A DNA stretch of 64,000 nt from Clostridiales bacterium (GTDB lineage: Bacteria > Bacillota > Dethiobacteria > Dethiobacterales > Dethiobacteraceae): NCBI GenBank assembly GCA_018335855.1, contig JAGXRM010000007.1, positions 1-64,000 on the forward strand. Direction: 5' to 3'. Below the pieces are notes generated by a model. It saw nothing but the letters and a program-made list of their open reading frames with translations. It made no database searches and was not told the origin of the DNA. The position numbers and the translations under genes were made by a program. Positions 7,087 to 42,940 of this stretch are shown here, in pieces (the first letter of the stretch is position 1; each line of letters begins with the position of its first letter).

Positions 7087-8877
7087 ATGAAAAAGACAAG
7101 CTTTATTGTAGTACTTACCATGGTTGCCCTGCTTGTAATGGCCAGCATGGCTATGGCAGCACCCGGTGACTATGATCCCCACCAAACCAGTGCCCAATAT
7201 GTTTATGATTCAACAGATACCTATACTGACGGCGCTGGCAACGTCTACTCGCCCGGGTATTTCTTTCTTGACCCCCGTGCCGGTAACTTAGGCGACACCC
7301 GCACCACCGTTGGCGGCTTCCAAATCTTCAACGCCAACTATACCGGTGAGACCAATGTCCCTTATTTCAAAAGCGATGCAAGTGATCCTTCCACATTTAA
7401 TACCTATCAGAGGAATGTTGCGGGCCAACTGGTCCATACAGACTTCCAACTGAACACCAACTCTTGCGCCTCCTGCCATATGACCCACACCGCGCAGTCC
7501 CGCAAGTTATTATTCCGAAACGGCGTGTACACCACTTGTACCGCCTGCCATGACGGCACACTGGGCTTCCTCAACGTGTTTGCCGCTCCCACAGCGGAAA
7601 ACCCGTTTGGCGGTTCCAAAACAGCCGGTACCTTCGGCGCTGACATGGGCCGGAACGCCTCCGTCCACTTGGCGAATGGCGCCATGAAGCTTGCTGCCGC
7701 CCCCGGCGGTAACCGTGCCAATGTGGCGCACGCTTCCGATAACGACGGCCTTACTGATTCCGAAACAGATCGTGCCAAGAGCACCTGGGCCAGCGACTTC
7801 ACCTGTGCTTCCTGCCACGGTCCCCACGGTTCCTACAGCGTCCGCCTTCTGCACTCCAACCCCAACAACATCGCAATTCGTATGCGTGAATCTGGCACCA
7901 TGGCAAACAGTGGCGGCCTCTGGCAAGCCAATTATGCTCTGACAGGCGCAGACCATGCCACCTATGTCAAGAAGTTCTCAGCCACAGGTTGGAATGTGAA
8001 CAACCCCTGGTTCTACGGCTATCCCGGCGGCGCCACCAATGGTTCCGGCGCACTGGCCGGCCGTTGGGCCCGTTTTGCCACCCGGATTTATGCTCCCACT
8101 CTGTATGATCCCAACACCGTGGGCGGCCCCCTGGCAGCCATTGACGGTACCAAGATCTTCAACACCAAGATCAGCGTCAATTACGGTAAAGCCTATGCAT
8201 ACTTTAAAGATCAGGCTCAGGTAGATGCGTTCCTTGATTATATCTTAGTTGCATTCCCCGCAGCCAACGGCGGCGTACGCTATGCAACTTTGGACGCCTT
8301 CCTTACTGCCCACCCCTTGAAAGTTGATATCGGCGGCGTTGTGAAAGTCACCGCTTCCTACAACTATGATGACACTTCAGAAAACCGCTACAAGTCTGAC
8401 TTTATCAACAGCACCACGTACAGCGGTAATGTTATCCAGGCTACCGGCAATCAGGCGCATAATGCTCCGTATAACCTGTTCTGCGCCTCCTGCCACGTTG
8501 ACTACCTCAGTGTAAGCGCCAGCCAGCAGGGCGACGGTGTCGGTGTCTACTCCAAGGCACACCGCCATACCATCAACCGCGGCGCCACCGGCGGCGGCAC
8601 CATGCAAGTTAAAGGCAACAACAACACGTTGCTCTGCGTATCCTGCCACTTCGGTCACGGTGCAGATTCTTCCTTCATGAGTCTGGCCAACGCCCAGTTG
8701 GTTGATGCCAATCCCGAATATGCAGGCACCAACGATGTGAACACCAGTTCCGCGCTGAAGCGCTACGTGAACATGTCTGTCTGCTGGTCCTGCCACGCCA
8801 ACTCTAGTGCGGCTACCATGAAGAACTCCCAGTGGTACTGGGATAGCTACGACACCATGGGACAAGGTTCCTGGTAA
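7087..8877 (+). CDS. Exported hexaheme cytochrome, doubled-CXXCH type (copy A)
   Basis: The 596-residue protein has a clear signal peptide (MKKTSFIVVLTMVALLVMAS, cleavage near AMA-AP) and six CxxCH motifs: CASCHMTH, CTACHDGT, CASCHGPHG, CASCHVDY, CVSCHFGHG, CWSCH. The paired spacing and the CHxxH-like flanks fit the doubled-CXXCH cytochrome family. A ~250-residue heme-free stretch lies between hemes 3 and 4 and may form a separate beta domain. The start at 7087 has AAAGGAGG; a second in-frame ATG at 7033 also has AAGGAGG and would lengthen the signal peptide by 18 residues. Third codon positions are strikingly C-rich compared with neighbours, suggesting high expression. Related to the gene at 9553. 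Confidence 0.9.
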   Translation: MKKTSFIVVLTMVALLVMASMAMAAPGDYDPHQTSAQYVYDSTDTYTDGAGNVYSPGYFFLDPRAGNLGDTRTTVGGFQIFNANYTGETNVPYFKSDASDPSTFNTYQRNVAGQLVHTDFQLNTNSCASCHMTHTAQSRKLLFRNGVYTTCTACHDGTLGFLNVFAAPTAENPFGGSKTAGTFGADMGRNASVHLANGAMKLAAAPGGNRANVAHASDNDGLTDSETDRAKSTWASDFTCASCHGPHGSYSVRLLHSNPNNIAIRMRESGTMANSGGLWQANYALTGADHATYVKKFSATGWNVNNPWFYGYPGGATNGSGALAGRWARFATRIYAPTLYDPNTVGGPLAAIDGTKIFNTKISVNYGKAYAYFKDQAQVDAFLDYILVAFPAANGGVRYATLDAFLTAHPLKVDIGGVVKVTASYNYDDTSENRYKSDFINSTTYSGNVIQATGNQAHNAPYNLFCASCHVDYLSVSASQQGDGVGVYSKAHRHTINRGATGGGTMQVKGNNNTLLCVSCHFGHGADSSFMSLANAQLVDANPEYAGTNDVNTSSALKRYVNMSVCWSCHANSSAATMKNSQWYWDSYDTMGQGSW

Positions 8878-39562: not shown

Positions 39563-39631
39563 GGGGTCAGGTTTAACAATTGATATTCCTAACCCCTGGC
39601 TTTTGCTAAATCAATTGTTAAGCCTGACCCC
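39563..39631. repeat. Full GGGGTCAGG palindromic repeat
   Basis: Bases 39563-39584 (beginning GGGGTCAGGTTTAACA) and 39610-39631 (ending TTAAGCCTGACCCC) form a 22-bp inverted repeat with one T/C difference and a 25-base loop. Partial copies lie at 24038, 42431 and 42931. It could also stop transcription from either side. It occupies the gap between the divergent amidase and sulfite reductase genes, just upstream of the latter's promoter. The remaining 39403-39562 shows nothing else. Confidence 0.85.
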
Positions 39632-39649: not shown

Positions 39650-39678
39650 TTGACAGCATAAAGGCCTTCACTTATAAT
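39650..39678 (+). promoter_or_regulatory. Consensus promoter of the sulfur module
   Basis: TTGACA (39650-39655), 17 bases, TATAAT (39673-39678): a perfect sigma-A match. Transcription would begin near 39685, leaving a leader of about 140 bases. Confidence 0.92.
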
Positions 39679-39823: not shown

Positions 39824-40690
39824 ATGGAGCTAAATTTTGCAGAATTGAAAAAAGGCGGTTTTATGAAGCACGTTCAAAAAGATTATTTTGCCGTACGCCT
39901 GCGTGTGGCAGGGGGCAACCTGTCGCTGGAGCAACTGAAAATCATTCAGGGTGTGGCTGAAAAATATGGACAGGGGTATGTTCATCTGACAACACGTCAG
40001 GGCATGGAAATTCCTTTCATTCACTTTAAGGATATTGAAAACGTCCGTAGAGAGCTTATAGATGGCGGGGTGAATTTAGGCGTTTGCGGGGGGACGGTGC
40101 GCGGTGTAATGGCATGTCACGGTACTGCCATGTGCCCCCACGGCCTGATTGATGCTAAAGCTCTATCCCGGGAGATTGACGCTGCGTATTTTGCAGCTCC
40201 GGTTCCGGGCAAGTTTAAGATAGCTGTAACCGGATGTCCCCGCAGTTGTGCAAAACCCCAGGAGAACGACTTTGGTTTTGAAGGTGCAGTTGTTCCGGAA
40301 TTTCACCAGCATGATTGTATTGGCTGCGGCGTATGTGCCGAAGTTTGTCCGGCCGATGCCATCGAAATGCGTGACAATGTACCGGAGATAGACAGAAGTA
40401 AATGCACCAATTGCGGCGACTGTGTGGCCTCGTGCCCGACGGCGGCCTGGCAGGCCGGGGAGCGCGGTGTTAAAGTCTGGGCAGGCGGCCGCATTGGCCG
40501 CAACCCGAAACTTGGCGAAGTTGTTATCGATTTCTTGCCTGTCCATAAAATCCCTCGCGTCATTGAAGCCAGCCTGGAATTTTTTCGGGAACATGGAAAG
40601 ACAAAGGAACGCTTTGGCAAGGTCATTGAAAGAATCGGTATCGATCGTTATAAGGAGGTATTGGAACATGCAGCTCAAGGAGACTCTTAA
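39824..40690 (+). CDS. Small siroheme sulfite reductase-like protein with two [4Fe-4S] clusters
   Basis: The 288-residue protein has an N-terminal NIR/SIR ferredoxin-like half domain with LTTRQGMEIPFIH (55-67). The siroheme/[4Fe-4S] cysteines are C98 and C104 (CHGTAMC) and C138 and C142 (CPRSC). A 2x[4Fe-4S] ferredoxin domain follows (C165/168/171/175 and C194/197/200/204). This is the AsrC/low-molecular-weight sulfite reductase plan, shorter than DsrAB or CysI. It should reduce sulfite to sulfide. AAGGAGGAATAACG precedes the ATG. The following carrier genes suggest that the sulfide is handed to a protein thiocarboxylate; this is inferred from context. Confidence 0.9.
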   Translation: MELNFAELKKGGFMKHVQKDYFAVRLRVAGGNLSLEQLKIIQGVAEKYGQGYVHLTTRQGMEIPFIHFKDIENVRRELIDGGVNLGVCGGTVRGVMACHGTAMCPHGLIDAKALSREIDAAYFAAPVPGKFKIAVTGCPRSCAKPQENDFGFEGAVVPEFHQHDCIGCGVCAEVCPADAIEMRDNVPEIDRSKCTNCGDCVASCPTAAWQAGERGVKVWAGGRIGRNPKLGEVVIDFLPVHKIPRVIEASLEFFREHGKTKERFGKVIERIGIDRYKEVLEHAAQGDS

Positions 40691-40910
40691 TATTACCGGG
40701 GATGCCTGTCCCATGACATTTGTGAGAACAAAGCTGGCGTTAGAGCCGCTAACCCGTGGAGATATCCTGGAAGTGGTGCTAAACGGCGGTGAAGCGGTGA
40801 AGAATGTGCCGCGCAGTGTGCGGGGCGAGGGACACAAAGTCCTTTTCCTTGAAAAGCAGGATGACGGCACGTACCGGATGCTGGTGGAAAAAGAGGGCGG
40901 CCATGAGTGA
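40668..40910 (+). CDS. tusA: TusA-family sulfur carrier (copy 1)
   Basis: The 80-residue protein has the TusA core NITGDACPMTFVRTKLALEPL with the persulfide-bearing Cys in the CPM motif (residue 14), followed by the usual beta-alpha-beta-beta fold ending in MLVEKE. TusA proteins carry sulfane sulfur between enzymes. The ATG at 40668 behind TAAGGAGG overlaps the sulfite reductase gene by 23 bases; the end overlaps the peptidase gene by eight. It is nearly half identical to the copy at 42677. Confidence 0.93.
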   Translation: MQLKETLNITGDACPMTFVRTKLALEPLTRGDILEVVLNGGEAVKNVPRSVRGEGHKVLFLEKQDDGTYRMLVEKEGGHE

Positions 40911-41334
40911 GGCGTATCTCTTGGCGGAACCGCTGTATCGGATTATGCTGGAGCAATGCCGGGAAAAGGCGCCTGTGGAAGCCTGCGGATTGTTGGGCGG
41001 TCCCGGACCAGACAAGGGGGCCCGTATCTTTCCTCTGGAGAACCTGGATAACTGTGCCGAATCTTATCGTATGTCCCCCCAGGACATACTAAGTACGATG
41101 AGGCAACTCGACGAAGAAAATATGGAACTCAACGCTATTTATCACTCCCATCCTGCGACCCAGGCATACCCCTCGGGTGTGGATACGGCCAAAGCCTATA
41201 TGGATGTGGTGTATCTCATCCTTTCCCTCCGTGACAAGGAACCGGTTTTGCGCGGATTCCGGATTCACGAAGGGGAGATACGTGAGGTTACGGTGACAAT
41301 TACTACCGGGGATGGTGAAGTTAATGTTAACTAA
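40903..41334 (+). CDS. JAMM/MPN+ metallopeptidase (Mec+/HcyD-like)
   Basis: The 143-residue zinc peptidase has the complete JAMM motif: Glu26 (EACGLLGG), His81 and His83 (YHSHP), Ser91 and Asp94 (PSGVD). Prokaryotic members next to ThiS/MoaD-like carriers (QbsD, HcyD, Mec+) cut off residues after the carrier's Gly-Gly or release an amino acid added to it. In this operon the carrier at 42156 does have a 21-residue extension after Gly-Gly, a natural substrate. The start at 40903 overlaps tusA. Confidence 0.92.
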   Translation: MSEAYLLAEPLYRIMLEQCREKAPVEACGLLGGPGPDKGARIFPLENLDNCAESYRMSPQDILSTMRQLDEENMELNAIYHSHPATQAYPSGVDTAKAYMDVVYLILSLRDKEPVLRGFRIHEGEIREVTVTITTGDGEVNVN

Positions 41335-42154
41335 TGACCAAATTATCCGTTACAGCAGGCATATATTACTGCCGGAAATGGGCGGGAAGGGACAGGAAAA
41401 ACTTTTAAGCAGTAAGGTGCTGTTAATTGGCGCCGGGGGTCTGGGTTCACCGGTGGCGCTTTATCTGGCTGCAGCCGGAGTGGGAACATTGGGTATCGTT
41501 GACGGGGATCATGTTGATCTAAGCAACCTGCAGCGTCAGGTTATTCATGCCACCCCTGATATCGGCAGGCTGAAAGTAGATTCAGCACGGGAAACAATAG
41601 CACAAATTAATCCGGATGTCCGCGTTGTCACCTATCCTGAATATATAACGGCTACGAATATTGGTGGTATACTCTCCGAATATGATCTGGTGGTCGACGG
41701 GTGTGACAATTTTGCCACACGCTACTTAGTCAGCGATGCGGCGGTAATTTATAAAAAACCGTATGTCTACGGCAGTATTTTGCGCCTTGACGGGCAAGCC
41801 GCCGTTTTTAACCCTCCCCAGGGGCCATGCTACCGCTGTATCTTTCCTGAAGCGCCGCCTCCGGGAGCTGTGCCCAGTTGTCAGGAAGCCGGCGTTTTAG
41901 GTGTGCTGCCGGGCTTGCTTGGTGTTATCCAGGCAACGGAGGCACTGAAGATGCTACTTGGAATTGGTGAGCCGCTCATCGGACGGCTGCTGCTGGTAGA
42001 TGCTCTCTACATGGAATTCACGGAAGCCAAAGTGGCTCGTAATAAAAACTGCCCGGTGTGTGGTGAAAATCCCACCATTACCGAATTGCGGGATGAAAAC
42101 TATAGGCAGGAAACATGCAATACTGAATTGGATGAGACTGAGGAGGAGAAATAA
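41324..42154 (+). CDS. E1-like sulfur-carrier adenylyltransferase (ThiF/MoeB/HesA family)
   Basis: The 276-residue enzyme activates the C-terminal glycine of a ubiquitin-like sulfur carrier with ATP. The nucleotide loop is GAGGLGSP (36-43); arginine and Asp residues lie in DLSNLQRQV (65-73); DGCDNFATRYL (125-135) is typical. Zinc cysteines are C169/C172 and C243/C246; the cysteine region SCQEAGVLG is at 185-193. There is no rhodanese domain, so sulfur must come from a separate donor such as TusA. ATG 41324 is chosen; a GTG at 41312 is possible. It overlaps the peptidase gene by 11 bases and the carrier gene begins one base after its stop. Confidence 0.92.
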   Translation: MLTNDQIIRYSRHILLPEMGGKGQEKLLSSKVLLIGAGGLGSPVALYLAAAGVGTLGIVDGDHVDLSNLQRQVIHATPDIGRLKVDSARETIAQINPDVRVVTYPEYITATNIGGILSEYDLVVDGCDNFATRYLVSDAAVIYKKPYVYGSILRLDGQAAVFNPPQGPCYRCIFPEAPPPGAVPSCQEAGVLGVLPGLLGVIQATEALKMLLGIGEPLIGRLLLVDALYMEFTEAKVARNKNCPVCGENPTITELRDENYRQETCNTELDETEEEK

Positions 42155-42155
42155 T

Positions 42156-42491
42156 ATGACCATCTATCTGCCCACACCACTTAGAAAACATGTCGGTGGT
42201 GCCAGGGAAATTACCGTTGCAGGGAAAACCATTCGTGATGTTTTTGTTGGCTTACGGGAGAACTATCCGGCACTGGCTGAGCAACTATGGGACGAAGAGT
42301 CTAATAATCTGAAAAAGTACCTGAATGTTTTCCTAAACGATGAAAATATCCGCAGCCTGCAGGGCCCGGACACCCCTGTACAGGAAAGTGATGCAATCTC
42401 AGTTATCCCGGCCATCGCCGGTGGCCAACCGGGGTCAGGTTTAACATTTAACGTAATCCTCTCACATCGTGAAACTAAGATGGCTGATTAA
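42156..42491 (+). CDS. MoaD/ThiS-like sulfur carrier with a 21-residue tail after Gly-Gly
   Basis: The 111-residue protein has a beta-grasp fold (MTIYLPTPLRKHVGG..., ITVAGKTIRDVFVGLRENYP, YLNVFLNDENIRSL) and the conserved end SVIPAIAGG at 82-90 (Gly codons 42420-42425). Carriers of this family normally stop at that Gly-Gly, which is adenylated and turned into a thiocarboxylate. Here 21 residues follow, encoded by bases 42426-42488. That stretch contains a copy of the GGGGTCAGG repeat and half of the terminator stem, so the tail looks secondarily acquired. Without removal the protein could not be activated. AGGAGGAG precedes the ATG. Close to the CysO/HcyS/QbsE type by context. Confidence 0.9.
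   Translation: MTIYLPTPLRKHVGGAREITVAGKTIRDVFVGLRENYPALAEQLWDEESNNLKKYLNVFLNDENIRSLQGPDTPVQESDAISVIPAIAGGQPGSGLTFNVILSHRETKMAD
42431..42446 (+). repeat. GGGGTCAGG repeat fragment inside the carrier gene
   Basis: GGGGTCAGGTTTAACA is identical to the first 16 bases of the palindrome at 39563. It begins five bases after the Gly-Gly codons and is translated as part of GSGLT. Confidence 0.85.
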
Positions 42492-42510
42492 TAAATCGGC
42501 CATCTTTTTT
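42477..42510 (+). terminator. Terminator of the sulfur operon
   Basis: AAGATGGCTGATT (42477-42489) pairs with AATCGGCCATCTT (42494-42506, one G-T pair) and a T-run follows. The stop codon of the carrier gene lies in it. Confidence 0.85.
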
Positions 42511-42676: not shown

Positions 42677-42940
42677 ATGAATGTTAGGAAAACATTAGAT
42701 ATCACAGGAGAAGTATGCCCGATTACTTTTATTAAGGTAAAACTGGTTCTCGAAGACATGGAACCGGGAGAACTGCTGGAAGTTCATCTGGACTGTGGCG
42801 TCCCGGCGAAGAATGTCCCGAAAAGTGTTGTGATTGACGGTCATAAGATTATATCTCTTACGGAACAGGGAGACGGAACAATCTGTTTGCTAATTGAGAA
42901 AGACGGTAGCGCTTTTAAAAGGTCAAATGATCAAGCCTGA
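42677..42940 (+). CDS. tusA: TusA-family sulfur carrier (copy 2)
   Basis: The 87-residue protein has the TusA core ITGEVCPITFIKVKLVLEDM with Cys14 and the same fold as copy 1 at 40668; the two probably arose by duplication. It has its own perfect promoter, so it can be made apart from the operon. Its last ~10 residues (SAFKRSNDQA) go beyond the end of copy 1, and the stop codon TGA (42938-42940) is supplied by a GGGGTCAGG-type repeat fragment read on the reverse strand. CGGAGG precedes the ATG. Confidence 0.92.
   Translation: MNVRKTLDITGEVCPITFIKVKLVLEDMEPGELLEVHLDCGVPAKNVPKSVVIDGHKIISLTEQGDGTICLLIEKDGSAFKRSNDQA

Follow-up and report, generated by a model that had tools for sequence, protein, structure and literature searches.

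A CysO-like sulfur carrier with a repeat-derived tail after its Gly-Gly, encoded in an operon with a JAMM peptidase

The window, a stretch of 64,000 nucleotides (G000:C7:1-64000) from a 2.96-Mb draft genome in 60 contigs, encodes a CysO-like sulfur carrier in which the Gly-Gly is followed by 21 further residues. We think it likely that this protein is a pro-form, that the JAMM peptidase of its operon cuts after Gly90, and that the repeat-derived tail was tolerated in a carrier that descends from a short-tailed ancestor. JAMM-linked masked carriers and this type of operon are already known; the repeat-derived tail of 21 residues is a new variant.

The carrier and its operon

The open reading frame at 42156-42491 on the forward strand encodes 111 amino acids, with a core that ends SVIPAIAGG at residue 90 and then QPGSGLTFNVILSHRETKMAD before the stop codon; this translation agrees with the first-pass annotation, in which the frame ran on for 21 residues after that motif. 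The core matches the beta-grasp ThiS profile of Pfam (PF02597, E = 1.4e-11, residues 7-90), and the top two solved relatives of the carrier are Mycobacterium tuberculosis CysO (3dwg_C, E = 1e-16) and the CysO of the Amycolatopsis BexX/CysO complex. CysO structures also lead when folds are compared (TM 0.66/0.78). Confidence in the predicted structure is modest (mean pLDDT, 74.6); the model shows poor order at Gly89, Gly90, and the two residues that follow, and it draws residues 98 to 103 of the tail as a weak strand at low confidence. G89-G90 are invariant among 15 aligned carriers and end the domain; in the window carrier, with 21 more codons, they are not the encoded C terminus. The core is 76 to 77% identical to those of two genomes of the same family, G012 and G010. 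Because this is near the 80% that the latter share with each other, the core is not decayed as far as its sequence tells.

TABLE 1 Features of the carrier operon and its surroundings
Positions	Strand	Feature	Basis
39563..39631	.	Inverted repeat pair (GGGGTCAGG...CCTGACCCC), just 5' of the operon's promoter-like site	
39650-39678		Perfect TTGACA-17-TATAAT promoter-like site before the operon	
39824..40690	+	Sulfite/nitrite reductase-like protein, 288 aa (NIR_SIR and 4Fe-4S domains)	
40668..40910	+	TusA/SirA-like sulfurtransferase, 80 aa	
40903..41334	+	JAMM (Prok-JAB) metallopeptidase, 143 aa	PF14464, E=1.7e-19
41324..42154	+	MoeB/ThiF-type E1 adenylyltransferase, 276 aa, without rhodanese domain	
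42156..42425	+	CysO/ThiS-type carrier core, residues 1-90, terminal Gly89-Gly90	Profile, homologue alignment
42426..42491	+	21 post-Gly-Gly codons (QPGSGLTFNVILSHRETKMAD) and stop; source, repeat and terminator stem	
42431..42476	+	Repeat copy GGGGTCAGGTTTAACATTTAACGTAATCCTCTCACATCGTGAAACT at the carrier 3' end	
42477..42506	+	Intrinsic terminator stem-loop; contains the carrier stop codon	
42602..42630	+	Perfect TTGACA-17-TATAAT promoter-like site before the second tusA	
42677..42940	+	Second TusA-like gene, 87 aa	
42933..42945	-	Repeat-end copy, overlaps the 3' end of the second tusA	

The genes of the operon mostly overlap or abut, and all five are open and conserved. A JAMM peptidase gene had been noticed among them; it lies two genes upstream of the carrier and has an intact motif (E26, H81-S-H83-P, S91, and D94, aligned to PDB 2kks and to JAMM1, 5lda/5ld9). 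The sulfite reductase-like protein is AsrC/DsrB-like in a profile search, yet it scores under the equivalog cut-offs. No cysK lies between the carrier and the second tusA; the repeat, the terminator, and a promoter-like site occupy this gap, and nothing significant was found when it was searched for cysK remnants. Two other cysteine synthase-like genes, with 55 to 56% identity, are located elsewhere in the genome (contigs C32 and C28).

JAMM peptidases that trim one or two residues after a carrier's Gly-Gly are known from QbsE/QbsD of thioquinolobactin synthesis and HcyS/HcyD of methionine synthesis in Wolinella. Going by the general descriptions of QbsE and HcyS, the window carrier differs from them in the length of its tail and in the tail's origin from a repeat. 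The M. tuberculosis CysO/CysM/Mec+ system supplies the nearest solved carrier; the window differs from it in the tail, in an E1 without rhodanese, and in the presence of TusA and sulfite reductase in the operon. A cysteine synthase gene accompanies the carrier and JAMM genes in G010 and G012 but not in the window. The set of genes is that of the type 4e sulfur-assimilation operon of Iyer, Burroughs and Aravind (2006; Table 1, row 4e; PMC1779556), which comprises a ThiS/MoaD-like protein, JAB, a rhodanese-less E1, SirA/TusA, and sulfite reductase; the window has all of these together. The same paper predicts that JAB proteins cleave Ub-like domains from fused partners, freeing the end for sulfur transfer, and a repeat-derived tail is not known to be described there. 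Removal of a long C-terminal extension that exposes Gly-Gly has precedents in MoaX, cleaved at the Gly82-Ser83 bond by a protease that had yet to be identified at the time (PMC4326299), and in the MoaD-MoaE fusion DR2607, which is cut by DRJAMM (PMC8832034). In both of these, cleavage releases a subunit of an enzyme, whereas from the window carrier it would release a nonconserved repeat peptide.

Carrier ends and JAMM peptidases among relatives

In G010 and G012, the gene order is as in the window and JAMM is present; the carriers end GG-SR* and GG-SI*, respectively, with stop codons that overlap the start of the cysteine synthase gene, and in G010 the order continues carrier-cysK-second tusA. 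The carrier of G005, from the same family, stops at GG in a genome without a CysO-type JAMM, and neither carrier nor JAMM was found in the sister species, G001. An alignment of orthologues had been proposed as a check on whether they end at Gly-Gly or carry short tails, and both kinds of ending thus occur. Two further genomes of the family, G009 (L085) and G015 (L086), have JAMM proteins 41 to 42% identical, and no carrier was found in them by the searches used.

Across the phylum, where a genome encodes a good Prok-JAB, its carrier ends GG-R, GG-I, or, in G296, GG plus 12 residues, and in 15 genomes the carrier runs directly into an E1 domain, with ∼280 to 480 residues past the Gly-Gly. Such a fusion needs a cut at the same place, after the Gly-Gly. 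The first-pass annotation was right that the window tail is far longer than one or two residues, but, given these cases, its length is not unprecedented. Since relatives with JAMM also lack a terminal Gly-Gly, a free encoded end does not define the JAMM-linked subgroup; on sequence grounds, the encoded tail does not bar the window carrier from this CysO/ThiS-type subgroup. The tails of the relatives' carriers have no sequence in common. In G183, where carrier, E1, sulfite reductase, and TusA are together and the genome lacks JAMM, the carrier ends at GG. In G296 (L196), we also observed a second ThiS-like carrier of 77 amino acids (7650-7883) that ends MFMGGGAR*; it is encoded between JAMM and cysteine synthase genes and overlaps the end of the JAMM frame.

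Among 27 related carriers, a count that leaves out the window carrier, 20 are masked and have JAMM, 4 are masked without it, none is free with JAMM, and 3 are free without it. Fisher's test gives p = 0.012 (0.004 after G059 and G092 are dropped), a value that overstates the support because the relatives share ancestry. The contig of G059 ends there and the G092 genome is 58% complete, which may explain why both appear masked without JAMM. The other two exceptions are G272 and G438, in which the carrier ends GG-Cys* and the JAB-domain hits are all weak. Short masked ends are thus possible where no CysO-type JAMM is obvious. In both genomes (L194 and L195), E1 and TusA are encoded nearby, and the encoded Cys resembles a carrier-cysteine adduct. 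A tail or fusion with JAMM, versus a free end without JAMM, offers a simple rule for predicting which carriers need processing.

Maturation of the carrier and competing explanations

In the pathway that we propose, the operon JAMM would remove the 21-residue tail by a cut after Gly90, and the MoeB-like E1 would adenylate the exposed Gly-Gly. TusA-bound, sulfite-derived sulfur would be loaded as a thiocarboxylate and then passed to cysteine or homocysteine synthase. The ancestral carrier would have had a short tail of ∼2 residues and a gene that overlapped cysK; in the window lineage, the cysK beside the carrier would have been lost, and a copy of the repeat, which is prone to lie at gene ends, would have taken the place of the native stop. 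By this reconstructed order, with cysK loss and stop replacement as either a single event or two, the repeat probably extended a tail that was dispensable already, at the time when the cysteine synthase gene downstream disappeared. The longer tail would have been harmless because JAMM already trimmed anything past the Gly-Gly, and the carrier probably still works. Masked carriers with JAMM in relatives that lack the repeat there, such as G010 and G012, indicate that the maturation step is older than the repeat. The first-pass annotation had suggested that repeat insertion either created a maturation step or was tolerated by one; we reject the former for this reason and favor the latter.

M. 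tuberculosis Mec+ acts on the CysO-cysteine adduct, where it hydrolyzes the bond that follows the final glycine of the carrier (PMC3227635). Because this bond is equivalent to the one after Gly90, the JAMM here could, by analogy, serve in both maturation and product release. Against tail cutting, the JAMM may be mainly Mec+-like, freeing cysteine from the carrier, and the modeled strand at residues 98 to 103 might hinder its access.

That the true gene ends at Gly-Gly and the tail is a sequencing or assembly error is hardly credible, even though the genome is a draft in 60 contigs. There are no stop codons between the Gly-Gly and the repeat; a 1-base deletion before the repeat gives GG-QRGQV*, with 5 extra residues, and a 1-base insertion gives GG-QPGVRFNI*, with 8. 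With all three frames masked, one erroneous indel at the junction could not free the Gly-Gly, so a true stop directly after it, which had been named as what would overturn the pro-form idea, is largely refuted and we reject it. The repeat copy at the carrier also agrees with the genome-wide consensus. We give somewhat more weight, while still considering it improbable, to the idea that repeat insertion inactivated the carrier, with a JAMM that cannot trim the tail or mainly releases cysteine, in a pathway that is disappearing now that the synthase beside it is gone. The operon without cysK, the two other synthase-like genes that could replace the pathway, and the absence of carrier and JAMM from the sister species would all fit; however, all five reading frames of the operon are open and conserved, the core with its Gly-Gly is no less conserved than in relatives, and JAMMs elsewhere must cut ahead of a whole E1. 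It is very unlikely that the tail is itself functional, whether by holding the carrier inactive before JAMM becomes active or by docking it to JAMM or E1: the strand predicted at low confidence for part of it is countered by the near-identical tail on NAD synthase, an unrelated protein encoded in the same genome, and by the lack of shared sequence among relatives' tails. If the pro-form reading holds, the window carrier, which cannot work while blocked, is a natural test of JAMM indifference to the sequence past Gly-Gly, and a processing step can shield a gene from a mobile repeat that deletes its stop codon.

The dispersed repeat

The tail had been traced to a repeat and a terminator stem, and both elements are borne out by the genome. 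The 21-base pattern GGGGTCAGGYTTNACANTTNA has 40 copies (21 forward and 19 reverse, against 0 control matches), and the stem at the carrier 3' end has an RNA fold z of -6.4; an RNA family search found no known family within the tail. In the window, GGGGTCAGG occurs in 5 copies versus 0.59 expected, one of them at 42431. The repeat consensus is GGGGTCAGGYTTRACA(A/T)TTRACCTAATCCTTTCACATNATGAAA or close to it, and nearly all genomic matches to the tail are repeat copies. The GGGGTCAGGYTTNACANTTNA pattern is absent from the sister species G001, and among 20 relatives searched only G010 and G020 match, each with one imperfect match.

We examined copies at loci L042-L069 of G000 (e.g., L044, L048, L050, L051, and L052). 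The repeat starts near the 3' end of a same-strand open reading frame, that is, with the stop between 16 bases upstream and 61 bases downstream of the point where the repeat begins, in 18 of 28 copies, and several copies are followed by a terminator-like hairpin, as judged by eye. In six genes, including ispF, thiI, and recN, the repeat gives the stop codon, with the endings RGQV, RGQA, or GGQV. The PGSGLT... frame is read in two genes, those of the window carrier and of an NAD synthase, which has 16 repeat-derived residues past the orthologue end, near-identical to the carrier's tail; in six relatives, the orthologue stops around IPDS or a few positions later. The tail is thus what the repeat encodes in that frame and is not specific to the carrier.

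Some copies are arranged in inverted pairs, near-perfect and ∼75 to 80 bases long (GGGGTCAGG...AGTTAGATCAA...CCTGACCCC), REPIN- or small-MITE-like, for example at L043/L056-L058 (G000:C10:167369-167518) and L061-L065. Like REP/REPIN elements, the repeat is short, often in inverted pairs, and mostly at gene ends; unlike with those elements, no copy was found within ∼3.3 kb around each of the genome's two Y1 transposase genes, and within those loci we reject a RAYT-type transposase next to the repeat. More speculatively, the repeat could belong to a kind of short mobile DNA not described before, one that inserts at gene 3' ends immediately ahead of terminators and supplies either stops (RGQV on RecN, ThiI, and IspF) or PGSGLT... 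tails (on the carrier and NAD synthase), with the carrier tolerant because its maturation peptidase trims the tail; we regard this reading as doubtful.

The convergent nadE and ispF genes are ∼80 bp apart in the sister species (L225, C58) and 3.8 kb apart in G000 (L221, C37:76900-82600), where inverted repeat copies lie exactly at both gene ends. An autonomous transposon was considered for these 3.8 kb and rejected, as no transposase-like gene was recognized by eye among the open reading frames. The insert carries a RelB/RelE-like pair, also identified by eye.
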